Positions 2,913 through 10,015 of a stretch of DNA of 64,000 nucleotides are shown here, piece after piece (position 1 is the stretch's first letter; each line of letters starts with the position of its first letter). The notes beneath the pieces were generated by a model. It did no database searches, was not told the DNA's origin, and saw only the letters and a program-made list of their open reading frames with translations. The DNA lies in contig JAHCIT010000001.1 of the NCBI GenBank assembly GCA_026129095.1, positions 248,245 to 312,244 of the forward strand, given 5' to 3'. The DNA is from Deltaproteobacteria bacterium. Its GTDB lineage: Bacteria; JAGRBM01; JAHCIT01. The translations under genes and the position numbers were made by a program.

Positions 2913-4010
2913 TCAGGCAGCGGCCCTAGAGACTGGCTTTACCGGCACGAGTCCGTTCTCCCAGAAACCCGGTACAGGCTCACGGCATCCCGGGCATTCG
3001 CCTCCCCTGCCAAGACGGTTTTCCAGAACCCGAAACCCGGTCCGCCGGATGACTGTTTCGCCACACCGGTGACAACGGGTGTCTTCCCAGTTGCCGACCT
3101 GCCCGGGCAGATTGCCGGGATAGATGAACCTGAGGCCCGCCTTGACCGCAATCTCCGCCGCCCGGACAAGGTGCCGGGGACCGGTGCGGACGTGGTCCTG
3201 CATGTGGTAGTCCGGGTGATAGGCCGTCACATGCCAGGGAATCAGCGGTGAAACCGACGCGATGAACTCCGTCAGACCGGTGAGTTCCTCGTCGGAATCG
3301 TTCCAGCCGGGGACGAGTAGCGTGACGATTTCGACCCAGAACCCCCGGTCAACCAGACTGGAAATCGTCTCCAGCACATGGTCCAGCCGGCCGCCCAGTT
3401 CACGGTAGTTCTTCTGCGAAAAGGCCTTGAGGTCTACCTTGTAGATATCGCAGTGGGGCTTCAGGAAATCGAGGACTTCCGGCGTCGCATTCCCGTTGGA
3501 AACGAACCCCGTGGCGAGCCCACGCGCACGGGCCGCCTTGAATACATCAACCGCCCACTCGGCAGTGATCAGCGGTTCGTTGTAGGTGGAAACCACGACG
3601 CGGGAACCGGCCCTGATGGCGATATCGGCAATTTCATCCGGCGTTACCTCCTCGGGTTCCACTCCTGCCACCGGATCGCGAAGCGCCTGCGAAGTCACCC
3701 AGTTCTGGCAGTAAGCGCACTTGAAGTCGCACCCGAGCATTCCGAAGGAGAGTGCTTTAACGCCCGGAAACGCGTGAAAATACGGCTTCTTCTCTATAGG
3801 GTCATTCTGGATGCCTGCCGCATAACCCCACGGAACATGGAGCTTTCCGCCCTCCATCCAACGGACCTTGCAGACGCCGCGCATGCCGTCCTTCAGGATG
3901 CACCGGTGCCCGCAGGCAACGCACCGGAGGCGCCCGTTCGATTCCGGCAGCGCCAGCGGGGTTTCCGTAGTGGACAACCGGTGTAGGTGTTGCTCCAGCG
4001 ATTCACTCAT
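2913..4010 (-). CDS. amrS: AmmeMemoRadiSam-type radical SAM enzyme (AmrS)
   Basis: Protein of 365 residues. The radical SAM cluster motif is Cys94-x3-Cys98-x2-Cys101 within a Gly-Cys-Asp-Phe-Lys-Cys-Ala-Tyr-Cys-Gln-Asn-Trp stretch characteristic of AmrS. The N-terminal part carries four Cys (30, 33, 37, 47), also typical, and the C-terminus adds a zinc-ribbon-like pair of Cys-x2-Cys motifs. Family members occur with AMMECR1 and Memo domains in the AmmeMemoRadiSam system, whose reaction is not firmly established. Neither partner gene is visible within this window, so it is an orphan here. Leftward gene, downstream of the terminator that ends the lipoprotein operon, so it probably has its own promoter in the 150-base gap. 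Confidence 0.85.
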   Translation of the reverse strand: MSESLEQHLHRLSTTETPLALPESNGRLRCVACGHRCILKDGMRGVCKVRWMEGGKLHVPWGYAAGIQNDPIEKKPYFHAFPGVKALSFGMLGCDFKCAYCQNWVTSQALRDPVAGVEPEEVTPDEIADIAIRAGSRVVVSTYNEPLITAEWAVDVFKAARARGLATGFVSNGNATPEVLDFLKPHCDIYKVDLKAFSQKNYRELGGRLDHVLETISSLVDRGFWVEIVTLLVPGWNDSDEELTGLTEFIASVSPLIPWHVTAYHPDYHMQDHVRTGPRHLVRAAEIAVKAGLRFIYPGNLPGQVGNWEDTRCHRCGETVIRRTGFRVLENRLGRGGECPGCREPVPGFWENGLVPVKPVSRAAA

Positions 4011-4157
4011 AGCCGGTGATTAGAGTAGCCACGAATGGCTGGGGGGAAAGAGAAAAGAAAACCATGGGGTGGCCCCGAGGGGTTTGCGAACCGTCTTTCC
4101 CCTTGTCCCTGCTTCGGGAGAAAGCCCTGAAACTATTGGCTTTTCAGCCGGATGGAG

Positions 4158-4187
4158 AAAAAAACGGGCGGCCAGCAGGCCGCCCGT
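4158..4187 (-). terminator. Rho-independent terminator of the DUF4382-like lipoprotein operon
   Basis: On the minus strand a 10-base-pair stem (ACGGGCGGCC with GGCCGCCCGT, loop TGCT) is followed by seven T residues (A run at 4158-4164 on the plus strand). It lies 24 bases after the stop codon of the upstream leftward gene. The stem-loop and the TTATCAGG beside it recur near 7198-7228. Confidence 0.85.
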
Positions 4188-4210
4188 CTCATTATCAGGC
4201 TGGACGAGGA

Positions 4211-5122
4211 TCAATCGTCTTCGCCATCGTCGTGGTCATCACCGAATTCGCCGGAGGCCTCAACCGCATCCTTGATCGAGTCAAGGATATCGCACTCATC
4301 CGTCGAATCGTTGATCGTGACATGGCCGGTTTCGTCAGCCACCAGATCACCATCAATGATGCATTCACCAACGCCAACGCTGGCGAACCAGGCGTTCACG
4401 TCGAGTTCCACGATCAGGTTGTTCAGTGTCGCGGCATCAATGGCTGCTCCATCCACGTTCTCAAACTCGACCTCCTCGTCGAAGTCCAGGGCGAGATCGA
4501 ACGTGTAGTCGGTGGAGTCATAGTTGAACGATCCGGCCGCCACCAGCGTGTTGCCGAGAATCGGGTCTTCCGTATCTACGAGTTCCTCCTCGTCGTCCTC
4601 GTCCACCGAGTCGAACTTGATCTTGATCTTGTTATAGACGAGCGGCGGGAGCAGCAGATCAGCCAGAGACGGTGTCGAGGTTCCGGTCATGAGATCAACG
4701 ACGTAGGGGCCGGTCACGCGGACCCGTGGGCCATCATCGTCATCCTCTTCCGATTCCTTGCATGTGACGTTTTCCGGCAGGGTAACAGCCCCAAGGTCGG
4801 CACAGGTAGTGCCCTCCGGGAGCTCGATATCAATGGTACGGATCGAGACAGAAGCGGAGTTCACATAGAACACGGTTCCGTCACTGCCATGACCTTCGTA
4901 ATCGACCTCGCCGTCGCCGTCATCGTCGTCTGCCTCGTCACCGTCGCTCTGGACGGTAATGGCATTGGTCGTGGCGGCCGCCGGTGCCGATGCGGACGAG
5001 GTCGCACGGATGATGATTCCGCCGCCGATCCCGCTGGCATCGGCTCCGCCGCCGGTGCTTCCACAGGCAGCGAGTGAGAGTGCGGCCAGAAGGGCCAGTG
5101 ATGTCTGTATCGTGGTTTTCAT
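4211..5122 (-). CDS. Acidic DUF4382-like lipoprotein A
   Basis: Protein of 303 residues with a classical lipoprotein signal: basic start, hydrophobic core and the lipobox Leu-Ala-Ala-Cys near residue 20. The start at 5122 is chosen over a TTG at 5137 because the Shine-Dalgarno AGGAG lies between them, 7 bases before this ATG. The mature part is very rich in Asp and Glu, with several runs of four or five. Segments such as Gly-Pro-Tyr-Val-Val-Asp-Leu, Tyr-Asn-Lys-Ile-Lys-Ile and Asp-Val-Asn-x-Trp-Phe are shared with the next gene upstream, and the layout resembles DUF4382 lipoproteins (secreted beta-sandwich proteins of unknown role). Last gene of the regulator-lipoprotein operon. Confidence 0.7.
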   Translation of the reverse strand: MKTTIQTSLALLAALSLAACGSTGGGADASGIGGGIIIRATSSASAPAAATTNAITVQSDGDEADDDDGDGEVDYEGHGSDGTVFYVNSASVSIRTIDIELPEGTTCADLGAVTLPENVTCKESEEDDDDGPRVRVTGPYVVDLMTGTSTPSLADLLLPPLVYNKIKIKFDSVDEDDEEELVDTEDPILGNTLVAAGSFNYDSTDYTFDLALDFDEEVEFENVDGAAIDAATLNNLIVELDVNAWFASVGVGECIIDGDLVADETGHVTINDSTDECDILDSIKDAVEASGEFGDDHDDGEDD

Positions 5123-5132
5123 GAATATCTCC

Positions 5133-5152
5133 TTCAAAAGATGTCTTTTGAA
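5133..5152 (-). promoter_or_regulatory. Inverted repeat abutting the ribosome binding site of lipoprotein A
   Basis: TTCAAAAG and CTTTTGAA flank four bases; in the mRNA this forms an 8-base-pair hairpin whose last GAA is the first part of the GAAGGAG ribosome binding site of the gene starting at 5122. It could tune translation or stability, or act as a DNA operator between the two lipoprotein genes. Confidence 0.4.
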
Positions 5153-5218
5153 TGTGTCTAGGGGTTGTGGTTTCGGGTTTATTGCGCGCGTTCCGGAACA
5201 GGGACAGGGACTATCAGC

Positions 5219-6106
5219 TCAGTCATCGTCATCCTCGATCTCTTCGTGATCGAGGTCGCCGGACTGTTCGATATTGTCTTTAAGGGCTTCTTCCACGTCC
5301 TCGCAGTCGCCTTCCAGGTCGGCCGCGAAGTTGATTGGCTCTACAACTGGATCCAGTTCCTCAATGCAGTCACCGATCGGCAGGTCTGTGAACCACCTGT
5401 TCACATCCAGGTTAAGGATGATCCGGTCCAGGGCACCGTCAGTAATACTGATGCCCGCCGGGTTCTCGAACTCCGGTTCGACGTCGAAGTCGAAAGGCAT
5501 GAGGTAGGAATAGACCGGGTCGTCAGTGGTTTCGGGAGTTTCGTTTGGAATCCGGATCGTACCGGCCGCATAAAGGGTGTGTCCTACAAGAGGGTGATCC
5601 GGCGGCAGATTGAGTCCGGAGGACTCCCCGAACCGGATCTTCACCTTCTTGTAGGTACCGGGCGGGACGGTAAGCTCGCCGCTCTCGGGAATCGAGGCGC
5701 CAAGGATCAGATCCACCATGAACGGTCCTTCGATGAGTATCCGGTCGTCTTCACAGGATACCGGGGACAGGAATTCGTAGTTTCCGAACATCTCGCAACC
5801 GGTGCCATCAGGAAGCTCGATCTCGATGAACTCCACATTTGCATAGCCCTCATTGACCGTGAGGATCGCACCACTGCCGTCTTCCCCCTCGGGGCCGTCG
5901 TCATCATCGTCACTGCTGTAGATATCGGCTGAGGCGGCGCTGGCCGCCACAATCGGCGTACCGGCCGGACCTGAAGAAACGGCCTGGACGGTGATCGTGG
6001 CGCCATTGCCGGTCTTCACGCCACCGGTCTCTCCGGCGCATCCGGTATCGCCGGAAGCAACGGCAAGGACTGCGGCCATCGTGATGAACAGTCGGAAGGA
6101 TCTCAT
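5219..6106 (-). CDS. Acidic DUF4382-like lipoprotein B
   Basis: Protein of 295 residues, paralogue of the gene at 4211-5122. It has a short basic N-terminus, a hydrophobic stretch and a Gly-Asp-Thr-Gly-Cys site near residue 23 that could be a lipobox, though it is less canonical than in its paralogue. Shared landmarks are Gly-Pro-Phe-Met-Val-Asp-Leu, Tyr-Lys-Lys-Val-Lys-Ile-Arg-Phe, Gly-His-Thr-Leu-Tyr-Ala-Ala-Gly, Asp-Phe-Asp-x-Glu-x-Glu-Phe-Glu-Asn and Leu-Asp-Val-Asn-Arg-Trp-Phe. Asp/Glu runs occur near residues 66-75 and at the C-terminus. The start codon overlaps the stop of the upstream TIGR02147 gene (ATGA), implying translational coupling. Confidence 0.7.
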   Translation of the reverse strand: MRSFRLFITMAAVLAVASGDTGCAGETGGVKTGNGATITVQAVSSGPAGTPIVAASAASADIYSSDDDDDGPEGEDGSGAILTVNEGYANVEFIEIELPDGTGCEMFGNYEFLSPVSCEDDRILIEGPFMVDLILGASIPESGELTVPPGTYKKVKIRFGESSGLNLPPDHPLVGHTLYAAGTIRIPNETPETTDDPVYSYLMPFDFDVEPEFENPAGISITDGALDRIILNLDVNRWFTDLPIGDCIEELDPVVEPINFAADLEGDCEDVEEALKDNIEQSGDLDHEEIEDDDD

Positions 6107-6972
6107 TTCTTGCTCCTCTGCTGGCGGGTCACAGGCACTGCCTGAAACCCGATGAAATAAACGTCCCGCGGTTCGCTGGAATCAGCGGGAGGCACGAGCT
6201 GGCTGAGGATTTCGTCCTGGAAAGCCGAAATCCGCCGACCGAGTTCTTCGTACTGGCTGCGCGTCAGGTTCACGGTCACCGACGTCACATACCGCTCCTC
6301 CTGTGGAAGCCCGTCCAGGCTGGCCAGAGCGTTTTCCAGCATCCGCCGGTGGTAGTTGCGGACCGCGAGGGATGACACCGAGGACGGAGTCTCAAGCGTG
6401 TTGTGGGCAGCTTTCAGGACACCGTTTCCCTCCCGGACGAGCAAGCCGGTATCGAGGAGAATGCGAAGGGCCCGCTCGATGTCGTACGGTTTCACCGGCG
6501 GGTGCAGCCGCCGGGCGATCCACGCCGGGTCTTCCTGGAAATCCGGATGGCGGACCATCTCCCGGACCGGGAGTGCCCACCAGAGCGAGTAGGCCTCGTA
6601 GTGGGCCTTCTCCATTTGCTTGCGCCCGTCGGTGTGCTTCCGGTACCGGCGCAGGCGCCCGTAGTAGTAGTTGCGTTCCTCATCTGTCTTCGCCTGGGAG
6701 AGCATCACGAGGGCCCCGAAATCCGCCTTTTCCTTTGCGTCGAGTCCCAGGCCCTTTGCGAACTTCTCGATGGAATCGGTAGCGAGATTGCGGTCGCCGT
6801 CCAGAACATGCTTGAGCAGACTCGGCGTATTGAACCCGGCCCGCCGGGCAAACCAGCGGTAGGAAAAGCCGCGCTGATTGGCCTTGAGATAGCTGACCAT
6901 GGCCTTCAGGAATTCGCGGTAGTTCTCGAAATCCGCCGGCTGGGGTCGCTCTTGTGTTGTTCTCGCTTCCAC
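6103..6972 (-). CDS. TIGR02147 / DUF4423 family regulator-like protein
   Basis: Protein of 289 residues, GTG start. It matches the TIGR02147 pattern: an N-terminal segment of the type Tyr-Arg-Glu-Phe-Leu-Lys, a helix-turn-helix-like region with Phe-Ala-Arg-Arg-Ala-Gly-Phe and Leu-Leu-Lys-His-Val-Leu-Asp-Gly-Asp-Arg-Asn-Leu (about residues 40-65), a central Arg/Tyr-rich helix, and a winged-helix-like segment with Leu-Leu-Asp-Thr-Gly-Leu-Leu. The family is expanded in Fibrobacter and present in Bdellovibrio-like bacteria, often beside lipoprotein genes; its biochemical role is inferred to be DNA binding. First gene of the operon with the two lipoproteins. No clear ribosome binding site precedes the GTG. 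Confidence 0.75.
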   Translation of the reverse strand: MEARTTQERPQPADFENYREFLKAMVSYLKANQRGFSYRWFARRAGFNTPSLLKHVLDGDRNLATDSIEKFAKGLGLDAKEKADFGALVMLSQAKTDEERNYYYGRLRRYRKHTDGRKQMEKAHYEAYSLWWALPVREMVRHPDFQEDPAWIARRLHPPVKPYDIERALRILLDTGLLVREGNGVLKAAHNTLETPSSVSSLAVRNYHRRMLENALASLDGLPQEERYVTSVTVNLTRSQYEELGRRISAFQDEILSQLVPPADSSEPRDVYFIGFQAVPVTRQQRSKK

Positions 6973-6987
6973 GAAAGCATGATGACC

Positions 6988-7053
6988 ACTTATTTTTAAA
7001 AATAAAGTGATTTTGATAAGTTATATCTAGTAATCGTTCTCAAATACGAGAAC
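6988..7053 (-). promoter_or_regulatory. AT-rich promoter region with two inverted repeats
   Basis: The 80 bases upstream of the TIGR02147 gene are much more AT-rich than the surroundings. At 7036-7053 GTTCTC and GAGAAC flank a 6-base spacer as a perfect inverted repeat. At 6988-7010 a nearly perfect inverted repeat (CACTTATTTTT against its complement with one extra base) lies 16 bases before the start codon. Either could be an operator for autoregulation. The rest of the 271-base gap up to ppdK shows no gene. Confidence 0.45.
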
Positions 7054-7197: not shown

Positions 7198-7217
7198 GGG
7201 CGGCCAGCAGGCCGCCC
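7198..7217 (-). terminator. Hairpin downstream of ppdK (second copy of the 4166-4185 stem-loop)
   Basis: GGGCGGCC and GGCCGCCC pair around a 4-base loop, 26 bases after the ppdK stop on the minus strand. There is no U-tract, so termination is less certain than at 4158. The stem-loop and the nearby TTATCAGG are the same as downstream of lipoprotein A, which suggests a repeated intergenic element. Confidence 0.45.
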
Positions 7218-7243
7218 ATCCCGTTATCAGGCCGGTGAACTGG

Positions 7244-10011
<2,768 letters not shown>

Positions 10012-10015
<4 letters not shown>

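Follow-up and report, generated by a model that had tools for sequence, protein, structure and literature searches.

The window analysed here is a stretch of 64,000 nucleotides (nt) from a Deltaproteobacteria bacterium (assembly GCA_026129095.1, contig JAHCIT010000001.1, positions 248,245 to 312,244), and our subject is a minus-strand operon within it that runs from 6972 to 4211. It encodes a regulator of the TIGR02147/DUF4423 family, then secreted protein B, then lipoprotein A; we call such secreted partners cargos. The three genes are:

6103-6972, minus strand: TIGR02147/DUF4423 regulator, 289 amino acids, GTG start, with an XRE-like helix-turn-helix (HTH) at about residues 15-95 and a winged-helix region at about 113-281
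5219-6106, minus strand: secreted protein B (cargo 1), 295 amino acids, with a signal peptide, an atypical lipobox DTGC, an N-terminal tag and a predicted beta-sandwich body
4211-5122, minus strand: lipoprotein A (cargo 2), 303 amino acids, ATG start, canonical lipobox LAAC

The regulator and B genes overlap by 4 nt (ATGA) and 96 bases separate the B stop from the A start, both exactly as described in an earlier note made from the sequence alone. An alternative TTG start for A at 5137, present in the list of open reading frames (ORFs), is less likely than the ATG.

By profile comparison the regulator is a full-length member of both TIGR02147 (E 1.6e-55, 188.5 bits against a curated cut-off of 50, model positions 6-270 of 272) and DUF4423 (PF14394; E 2.2e-33, 115.8 bits against a gathering cut-off of 30), well over both cut-offs. 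The library entries for the two families give neither function nor partner, and a tagged partner is what we add here. As its NCBIfam name implies (Fsuc_second, of 'paralog' type), TIGR02147 is multi-copy in Fibrobacterota, with 36 copies in one Fibrobacterota genome; a Chitinivibrionales genome has 28 and a Bdellovibrionales genome 26. The family is thus among the largest paralogous families in Fibrobacterota and is without a known role. A literature search returned no paper on TIGR02147 and, in the portions of the sources it returned, DUF4423 only as a table entry (Bd3700); the accessible portion of the F. succinogenes genome paper does not mention the TIGR02147 family.

The earlier note had regarded the two secreted proteins as a dedicated cargo of the regulator, and had named a lack of conservation as neighbours as what would speak against this. 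The pair is kept at the genome's own second copy, in an order-mate and in several phyla. A genome-wide count, also proposed in that note, found two TIGR02147 genes, both of them paired: the other, on contig C5 (L011), directly precedes a third A/B paralogue (27% identity). The single order-mate compared (G001) has three TIGR02147 genes. At one (L012) the regulator is followed by two A/B homologues in unchanged order, and at the others (L014 and L013) by different lipoproteins with overlapping starts, the L013 stretch ending after 119 nt. In 84,980 species' genomes a scan found 39 more TIGR02147 loci, and copy numbers in 16 of these genomes range from 1 to 36. We took 100 additional stretches; the multi-copy genomes are sampled with 20 of 28 copies in G069, 20 of 36 in G076, 16 of 26 in G078, 14 of 14 in G068, 10 of 12 in G075 and 4 of 8 in G079. 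The pair was found across Myxococcota, "Deltaproteobacteria", Bdellovibrionales, Fibrobacterota and others.

To set these pairs against a background, we used as controls ORFs of at least 200 amino acids from the same loci, taken longest first. A secreted ORF lay no more than 60 nt downstream of 104 of 133 distinct regulators as compared to 75 of 555 control ORFs (odds ratio 23), a control rate that is possibly lowered because some controls are spurious antisense ORFs. The secreted ORF started exactly at -4 (ATGA) in 53 of the 104 regulator cargos and in 10 of the 75 control secreted ORFs. The 133 regulators are 146 entries minus duplicates, entries with no stop and those with less than 200 nt downstream (including L013, L052 and L067); secretion was called by our own rule on hydrophobicity and cleavage site rather than by SignalP, and loci from one genome are not independent. 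With pairing far beyond chance, and with cargo class following regulator clade within genomes (see below), these comparisons strongly support the dedicated-cargo idea, which is far more general than stated earlier.

What the cargos have in common is not their bodies. A set of 111 cargos, chosen by a looser rule than the 104 and including A of the window, matches 68 Pfam families (CarboxypepD_reg 21 times; propeller, LRR, PKD, kelch and others); mean column identity in an alignment of all 111 is 4%, and an NCBIfam scan of the set gave scattered repeat-type matches with no common name. Directly after the signal peptide, most of them carry the sequence G-T-x-[TVI]-G-N-[PG] (GTETGNP, GTDVGNP, GTEIGNP and the like). 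Lineage variants are GG..SETTNGI in Fibrobacterota and Chitinivibrionales, and (A)GG..VGNGGD or REGG..HGGD in Bdellovibrionales-like genomes. In the window the corresponding segments are:

6002-6022, minus strand: tag of B, G29-V-K-T-G-N-G35 (GVKTGNG), assigned from the sequence and motif statistics
5018-5035, minus strand: decayed tag of A, S30-G-I-G-G-G35, aligned to the B tag

The B tag lies within predicted disordered residues 1-77, yet G33 is nearly invariant. A tag matrix learnt by expectation maximization on 36 cargos, including loci of the 84,980-genome scan, gave scores of at least 3 bits to 36 of 68 held-out cargos as compared to 3 of 75 control secreted ORFs; of the three control matches, one is itself the cargo of a further TIGR02147 gene and another the second gene of a TIGR02147 operon. 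Codons for the tag vary, their wobble bases broadly following the GC content of the gene at third codon positions in 19 cargos, and selection therefore acts on the protein; a DNA or RNA element was rejected on the same ground. The tag is present on cargos of both signal peptidase I and signal peptidase II type, which argues against a purely lipoprotein-sorting role. At L149 the gene behind the first cargo (3229-4857) also starts with GDKVGNGGD, a second cargo in the operon as in the window. Literature searches returned no description of an N-terminal tag on TIGR02147 partners and, among the matches listed, tag strings in other matters only. The new element, read from protein sequences, is a tag uniting unrelated secreted proteins behind one regulator family; together with an operator-like palindrome and a flanking direct repeat (both described below), it goes beyond the earlier note.

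Tag classes follow the regulators. On the regulator tree the classes change 9 times; the minimum was 39 changes when classes were shuffled globally (200 shuffles) and 12 when they were shuffled within genomes (300 shuffles). The test covered 102 of 128 tree regulators and used three tag classes defined by ad hoc patterns, with 'none' and 'other' excluded. In one Bdellovibrionales genome, two regulators of C-GTxTGNP cargos group with a Bacteriovoracaceae regulator that has a like cargo, apart from the other copies of their own genome. Cargo class is, on this tree, co-inherited with the regulator clade.

Upstream of the operon are two palindromes:

7036-7053: operator candidate GTTCTC-N6-GAGAAC, 64-81 bp upstream of the regulator start
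6990-7005: A+T palindrome, TTATTTTTAAAAATAA

Palindromes matching the operator candidate lie at the same distance (-78 to -81) at the genome's own C5 copy (GTTCTCGGAAAGAAAAC) and at the C508 copy of the order-mate (GTTCTCTACAGAGAAC). The pattern GTTCTCN{3,8}GARAAC, which was picked after the sequences had been seen, occurs at 12 places in 3.67 Mb, and two of these are upstream of the two TIGR02147 regulators. A further perfect GTTCTC palindrome of this genome, inside an rpoC-like coding sequence, was taken as a coincidence. Over the family, GTnTnC-N3..7-GnAnAC was found in 11 of 134 upstream stretches, whereas shuffles gave 0.7 and stretches farther off 3 of 134. A family-wide operator type is at most suggested by this, since the same sequences had served to derive the patterns and a rise (to 6 of 134) was also seen for one of the four controls. 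Perfect inverted repeats with arms of at least 7 number 30 within 100 nt before the start and 8 at -300 to -200. Other family members have different palindromes at -43 to -107, as would be expected if each regulator had its own operator, which is suggestive only. By inference, the window regulator may control its own operon through 7036-7053.

The account that we favor, if tentatively, is a widespread two-part module in which a DNA-binding regulator is co-translated with one or two tagged envelope proteins and regulates its own operon, and in which this regulator, or else an export factor, reads the tag. The cytoplasmic regulator, presumably a dimer, would bind GTTCTC-N6-GAGAAC at 7036-7053 through its XRE-type HTH, and the tag, in the flexible stretch after the signal peptide, would serve as a recognition handle. 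The winged-helix DUF4423 region would most likely bind the tag on cargo not yet exported, or on a returning fragment, and synthesis of the cargo would thereby be coupled to the export of that cargo. The outward job, different from pair to pair, would fall to the body of the cargo, in the window a predicted beta-sandwich with an acidic tail. A plain repressor, of which small amounts suffice, is not usually coupled to its target in translation, and mutually binding proteins usually are; here such coupling could supply the matched amounts that binding would need. This coupling, the near confinement of the tag and its occurrence on substrates of both signal peptidases make the regulator the likeliest reader; a sorting machine of the envelope is its main rival. 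Pairing and tag lead to a testable hypothesis on how these bacteria control the content of their surface, and give a rule by which many otherwise unplaced secreted proteins can be annotated.

The proposal depends on how closely the tag is tied to TIGR02147. A profile (A7) of 38 positions, covering signal peptide and tag, was run against whole genomes. In seven genomes with 22 TIGR02147 genes it gave 16 matches at E<=1e-3, 15 of them directly behind a TIGR02147 gene and one (G067) not; as 12 of the 15 linked matches are rows of the profile, the independent score is three linked to one unlinked. In 36 genomes without TIGR02147 no match exceeded 23.7 bits, and only two of 21 matches at E<=0.005 cover the tag positions, both below 22 bits. 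In five genomes of a held-out phylum, with eight regulators, the sole tag-covering match is directly behind a regulator, and two cargos missed by the profile carry GTGTGNP and GTEIGNP on direct reading. On these counts the tag is nearly confined to TIGR02147 neighbors.

Besides the small independent score and the operator pattern chosen after the fact, several findings weigh against the tag-reading module. The profile recovered only one of the eight cargos at E<=0.01 in the held-out phylum, which was absent from the profile. The unlinked match in G067 is a tagged lipoprotein (L214, G067:C167:4673-4753; GTLDTGN, E 1.1e-4) that contains long NNGEPT repeats and has no TIGR02147 gene in its vicinity, and a weaker case in the window's own genome is a GSGTGNG lipoprotein (L219, G000:C1:132956-133066; E 0.0067) that also has no TIGR02147 neighbor. 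Of the 133 regulators, 29 fail the strict secretion rule; about 10 of these are misses of the rule or have a more distant secreted ORF, and the remainder, including L029 and L030, have no secreted neighbor as far as seen. A consensus scan recognized no sigma-70 promoter. Finally, co-inheritance fits recognition, and it can equally arise by plain duplication of whole pairs.

Some of these loci deserve a separate remark. L219 lies behind a translation-factor-like ORF (named by eye). Among the named loci, L029 and L030 are two of those nearest to the regulator of the window, and L029 is followed by an enoyl-CoA-hydratase-like ORF (also named by eye). In G078, five TIGR02147 genes (L168 and L170-L173) have no tagged secreted neighbor and mostly fall in one region of the tree; they are perhaps a subfamily with another role.

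A bolder form of the tag-reading module can be speculated, in which TIGR02147 proteins are secretion-status sensors, each reading in the cytoplasm the N-terminal tag of its own co-translated cargo and adjusting its operon. We consider this possible but on the whole unlikely. If true, a cell would run its cargos through parallel channels, up to dozens of them, each monitoring itself, and the family would be a class of one-component regulators whose ligand is the mature N-terminus of an outbound protein.

Another possibility is that the reader is not the regulator but an export factor: a machine common to the cargos would read the tag in the envelope as a signal for export or sorting, while the regulator switches the operon on a separate cue. 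The position of the tag, in a disordered stretch right after the signal peptide, matches known envelope sorting signals, and the tagged lipoprotein of G067 is unlinked to TIGR02147. As far as the accessible text describes it, the lipoprotein export signal (LES) of Bacteroidetes is K-(D/E)2 or Q-A-(D/E)2 at the mature N-terminus (PMC5080379). Like the tag, it is short, lies at the N-terminus of mature lipoproteins and is shared by proteins whose bodies are unrelated. Its letters are different; the TIGR02147-linked tag also occurs on signal peptidase I proteins and goes with a single regulator family. In the accessible text on curli targeting (PMC7217966), the N22 segment of CsgA is likewise a disordered N-terminus of a secreted protein and is recognized by a partner. 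However, the cargo bodies here have no amyloid repeats, and CsgG gave 0 matches in two module-bearing genomes, G068 (14 regulators) and G070 (3 regulators); CsgG therefore cannot be the common reader and was rejected as such. Given also the near confinement of the tag and the tagging of substrates of both peptidases, we think a common sorting machine a serious contender that is nonetheless rather unlikely.

The pairs could also be ordinary local operons, each with a one-component regulator beside its target, the tag being a flexible Gly-rich linker that was inherited with the start of the gene as the bodies were swapped. Adjacent regulator-target pairs are common, as are Gly-rich linkers after a lipidated Cys, and the pairs are inherited together. 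On the other hand, the tag is specific (T, G-N, P/G), is kept across phyla despite codon change and is rare elsewhere, both among the control secreted ORFs and in the TIGR02147-free genomes. We therefore regard this explanation as improbable.

RRNPP pairs also consist of an XRE-type cytoplasmic regulator adjoining the gene for an exported partner, and have a C-terminal TPR sensor domain in the regulator. By analogy, a tag peptide clipped from the cargo once it is exported could re-enter the cell as the ligand of the TIGR02147 regulator and form a pheromone or self-recognition channel. An XRE-type HTH regulator overlapped by the gene of a secreted partner, a short conserved tag and the many pairs that run in parallel, up to 36 in one genome, would all fit. 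The AlphaFold2 model of the regulator (pLDDT 89.1, pTM 0.72) points elsewhere. Residues 15-95 resemble XRE/HigA-like proteins (VIA-align Z 6-8), and residues 113-279 resemble CzrA (Z 8.4, root-mean-square deviation (rmsd) 3.9, 87 aligned), a winged helix near the ArsR/SmtB proteins; Z values of this size are common and indicate arrangement only, and other folds are possible. The best sequence match of the regulator to a solved structure had E 0.01 and covered the HTH part only, and Foldseek gave no match at E<=0.001 for the regulator or B models. There was no TPR match in a Pfam scan of the regulator, and the predicted model has a winged helix, not a TPR superhelix, at the position of the RRNPP sensor. 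The partner is moreover a large envelope protein, no processing site or importer was identified, and tags so alike between pairs would lead to cross-talk. A peptide channel of this kind seems to us distinctly improbable.

The surroundings of the operon bear on a last alternative. They include the following features:

4158-4187, minus strand: intrinsic terminator, hairpin 4164-4187 followed by a U tract (-36.8 kcal/mol, z -5.6)
4166-4203: direct repeat copy 1, 38 nt, containing the terminator stem, from a repeat comparison
7198-7235: direct repeat copy 2, with 89% identity to copy 1, immediately beyond the kinase stop codon
2913-4010: AmmeMemoRadiSam-type radical SAM gene adjoining the operon (TIGR04337, 281 bits)
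7244-10015: phosphoenolpyruvate (PEP)-utilising kinase gene on the other flank of the operon, from a library match

We could be looking at a mobile cassette of a toxin-antitoxin-like or accessory kind, with the pairing as a reflection of its mobility, but this is very improbable. In its favor, the repeats flank exactly the operon, with an 18-nt core found at these two places only in the whole genome, and copy numbers range widely. Against it, no recombinase gene was recognized alongside in the part of the neighboring ORFs that was scanned, L011 has no such flanking repeat (the L012 stretch ends about 400 nt upstream of its regulator), and the cargo carries a signal peptide but no toxin domain. 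The operon itself may be an insertion at the 3' end of the kinase gene. Both flanking genes are unrelated to it. The hairpin and U tract bear out the strong terminator noted earlier after A, although a simple consensus scan lists none here.

The cargos of the window are paralogues (38% identity, E 1.4e-35) and rich in Asp and Glu, which make up 21.4% of B and 23.4% of A as compared to a median of 12.4% among the 111 cargos. Both properties had been noted earlier, and the paralogy supports the duplicated cargo proposed at the same time. The tree of A/B relatives in the two genomes has no starred branch, so the duplication is placed neither before nor after the order. The description of both as lipoproteins holds for A, whose canonical lipobox LAAC was read by eye; for B lipidation is unsure because its lipobox, D-T-G-C with D at -3, is atypical, and the scripted rule typed B as a signal peptidase I substrate. 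The label DUF4382-like was not borne out by sequence: for A, B and eight homologues, neither DUF4382 nor any other Pfam family matched the body at E<=1. Structure prediction, suggested in the earlier note, gave for B a model with pLDDT 60.5 overall and about 80 in the body (residues 1-77 being almost all under 50), in which the body is predicted to be a beta-sandwich. Its best solved match, on this middling-confidence model, is MbnP (7l6g; Z 6.6, 179 aligned, rmsd 4.5), the next entry having Z 2.7; any likeness would lie in the predicted beta-sandwich fold, and identity is only 6%.

The acidic runs of A and B are 4-7 residues long, and the earlier note had suggested that they might bind calcium or other cations. 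Runs of at least 4 are missing from all three same-genome or order relatives (L011, L012 A and L012 B); the runs thus differ between relatives and form no conserved site, and we rejected them as a conserved feature. Cation binding by A and B is possible, but unsupported for the acidic runs themselves. Three Myxococcales homologues (the cargos of L033, L040 and L042) have C-terminal EF-hand-like loops in the place of the acidic tails of A and B; A itself holds one DxDxDGxxD stretch.

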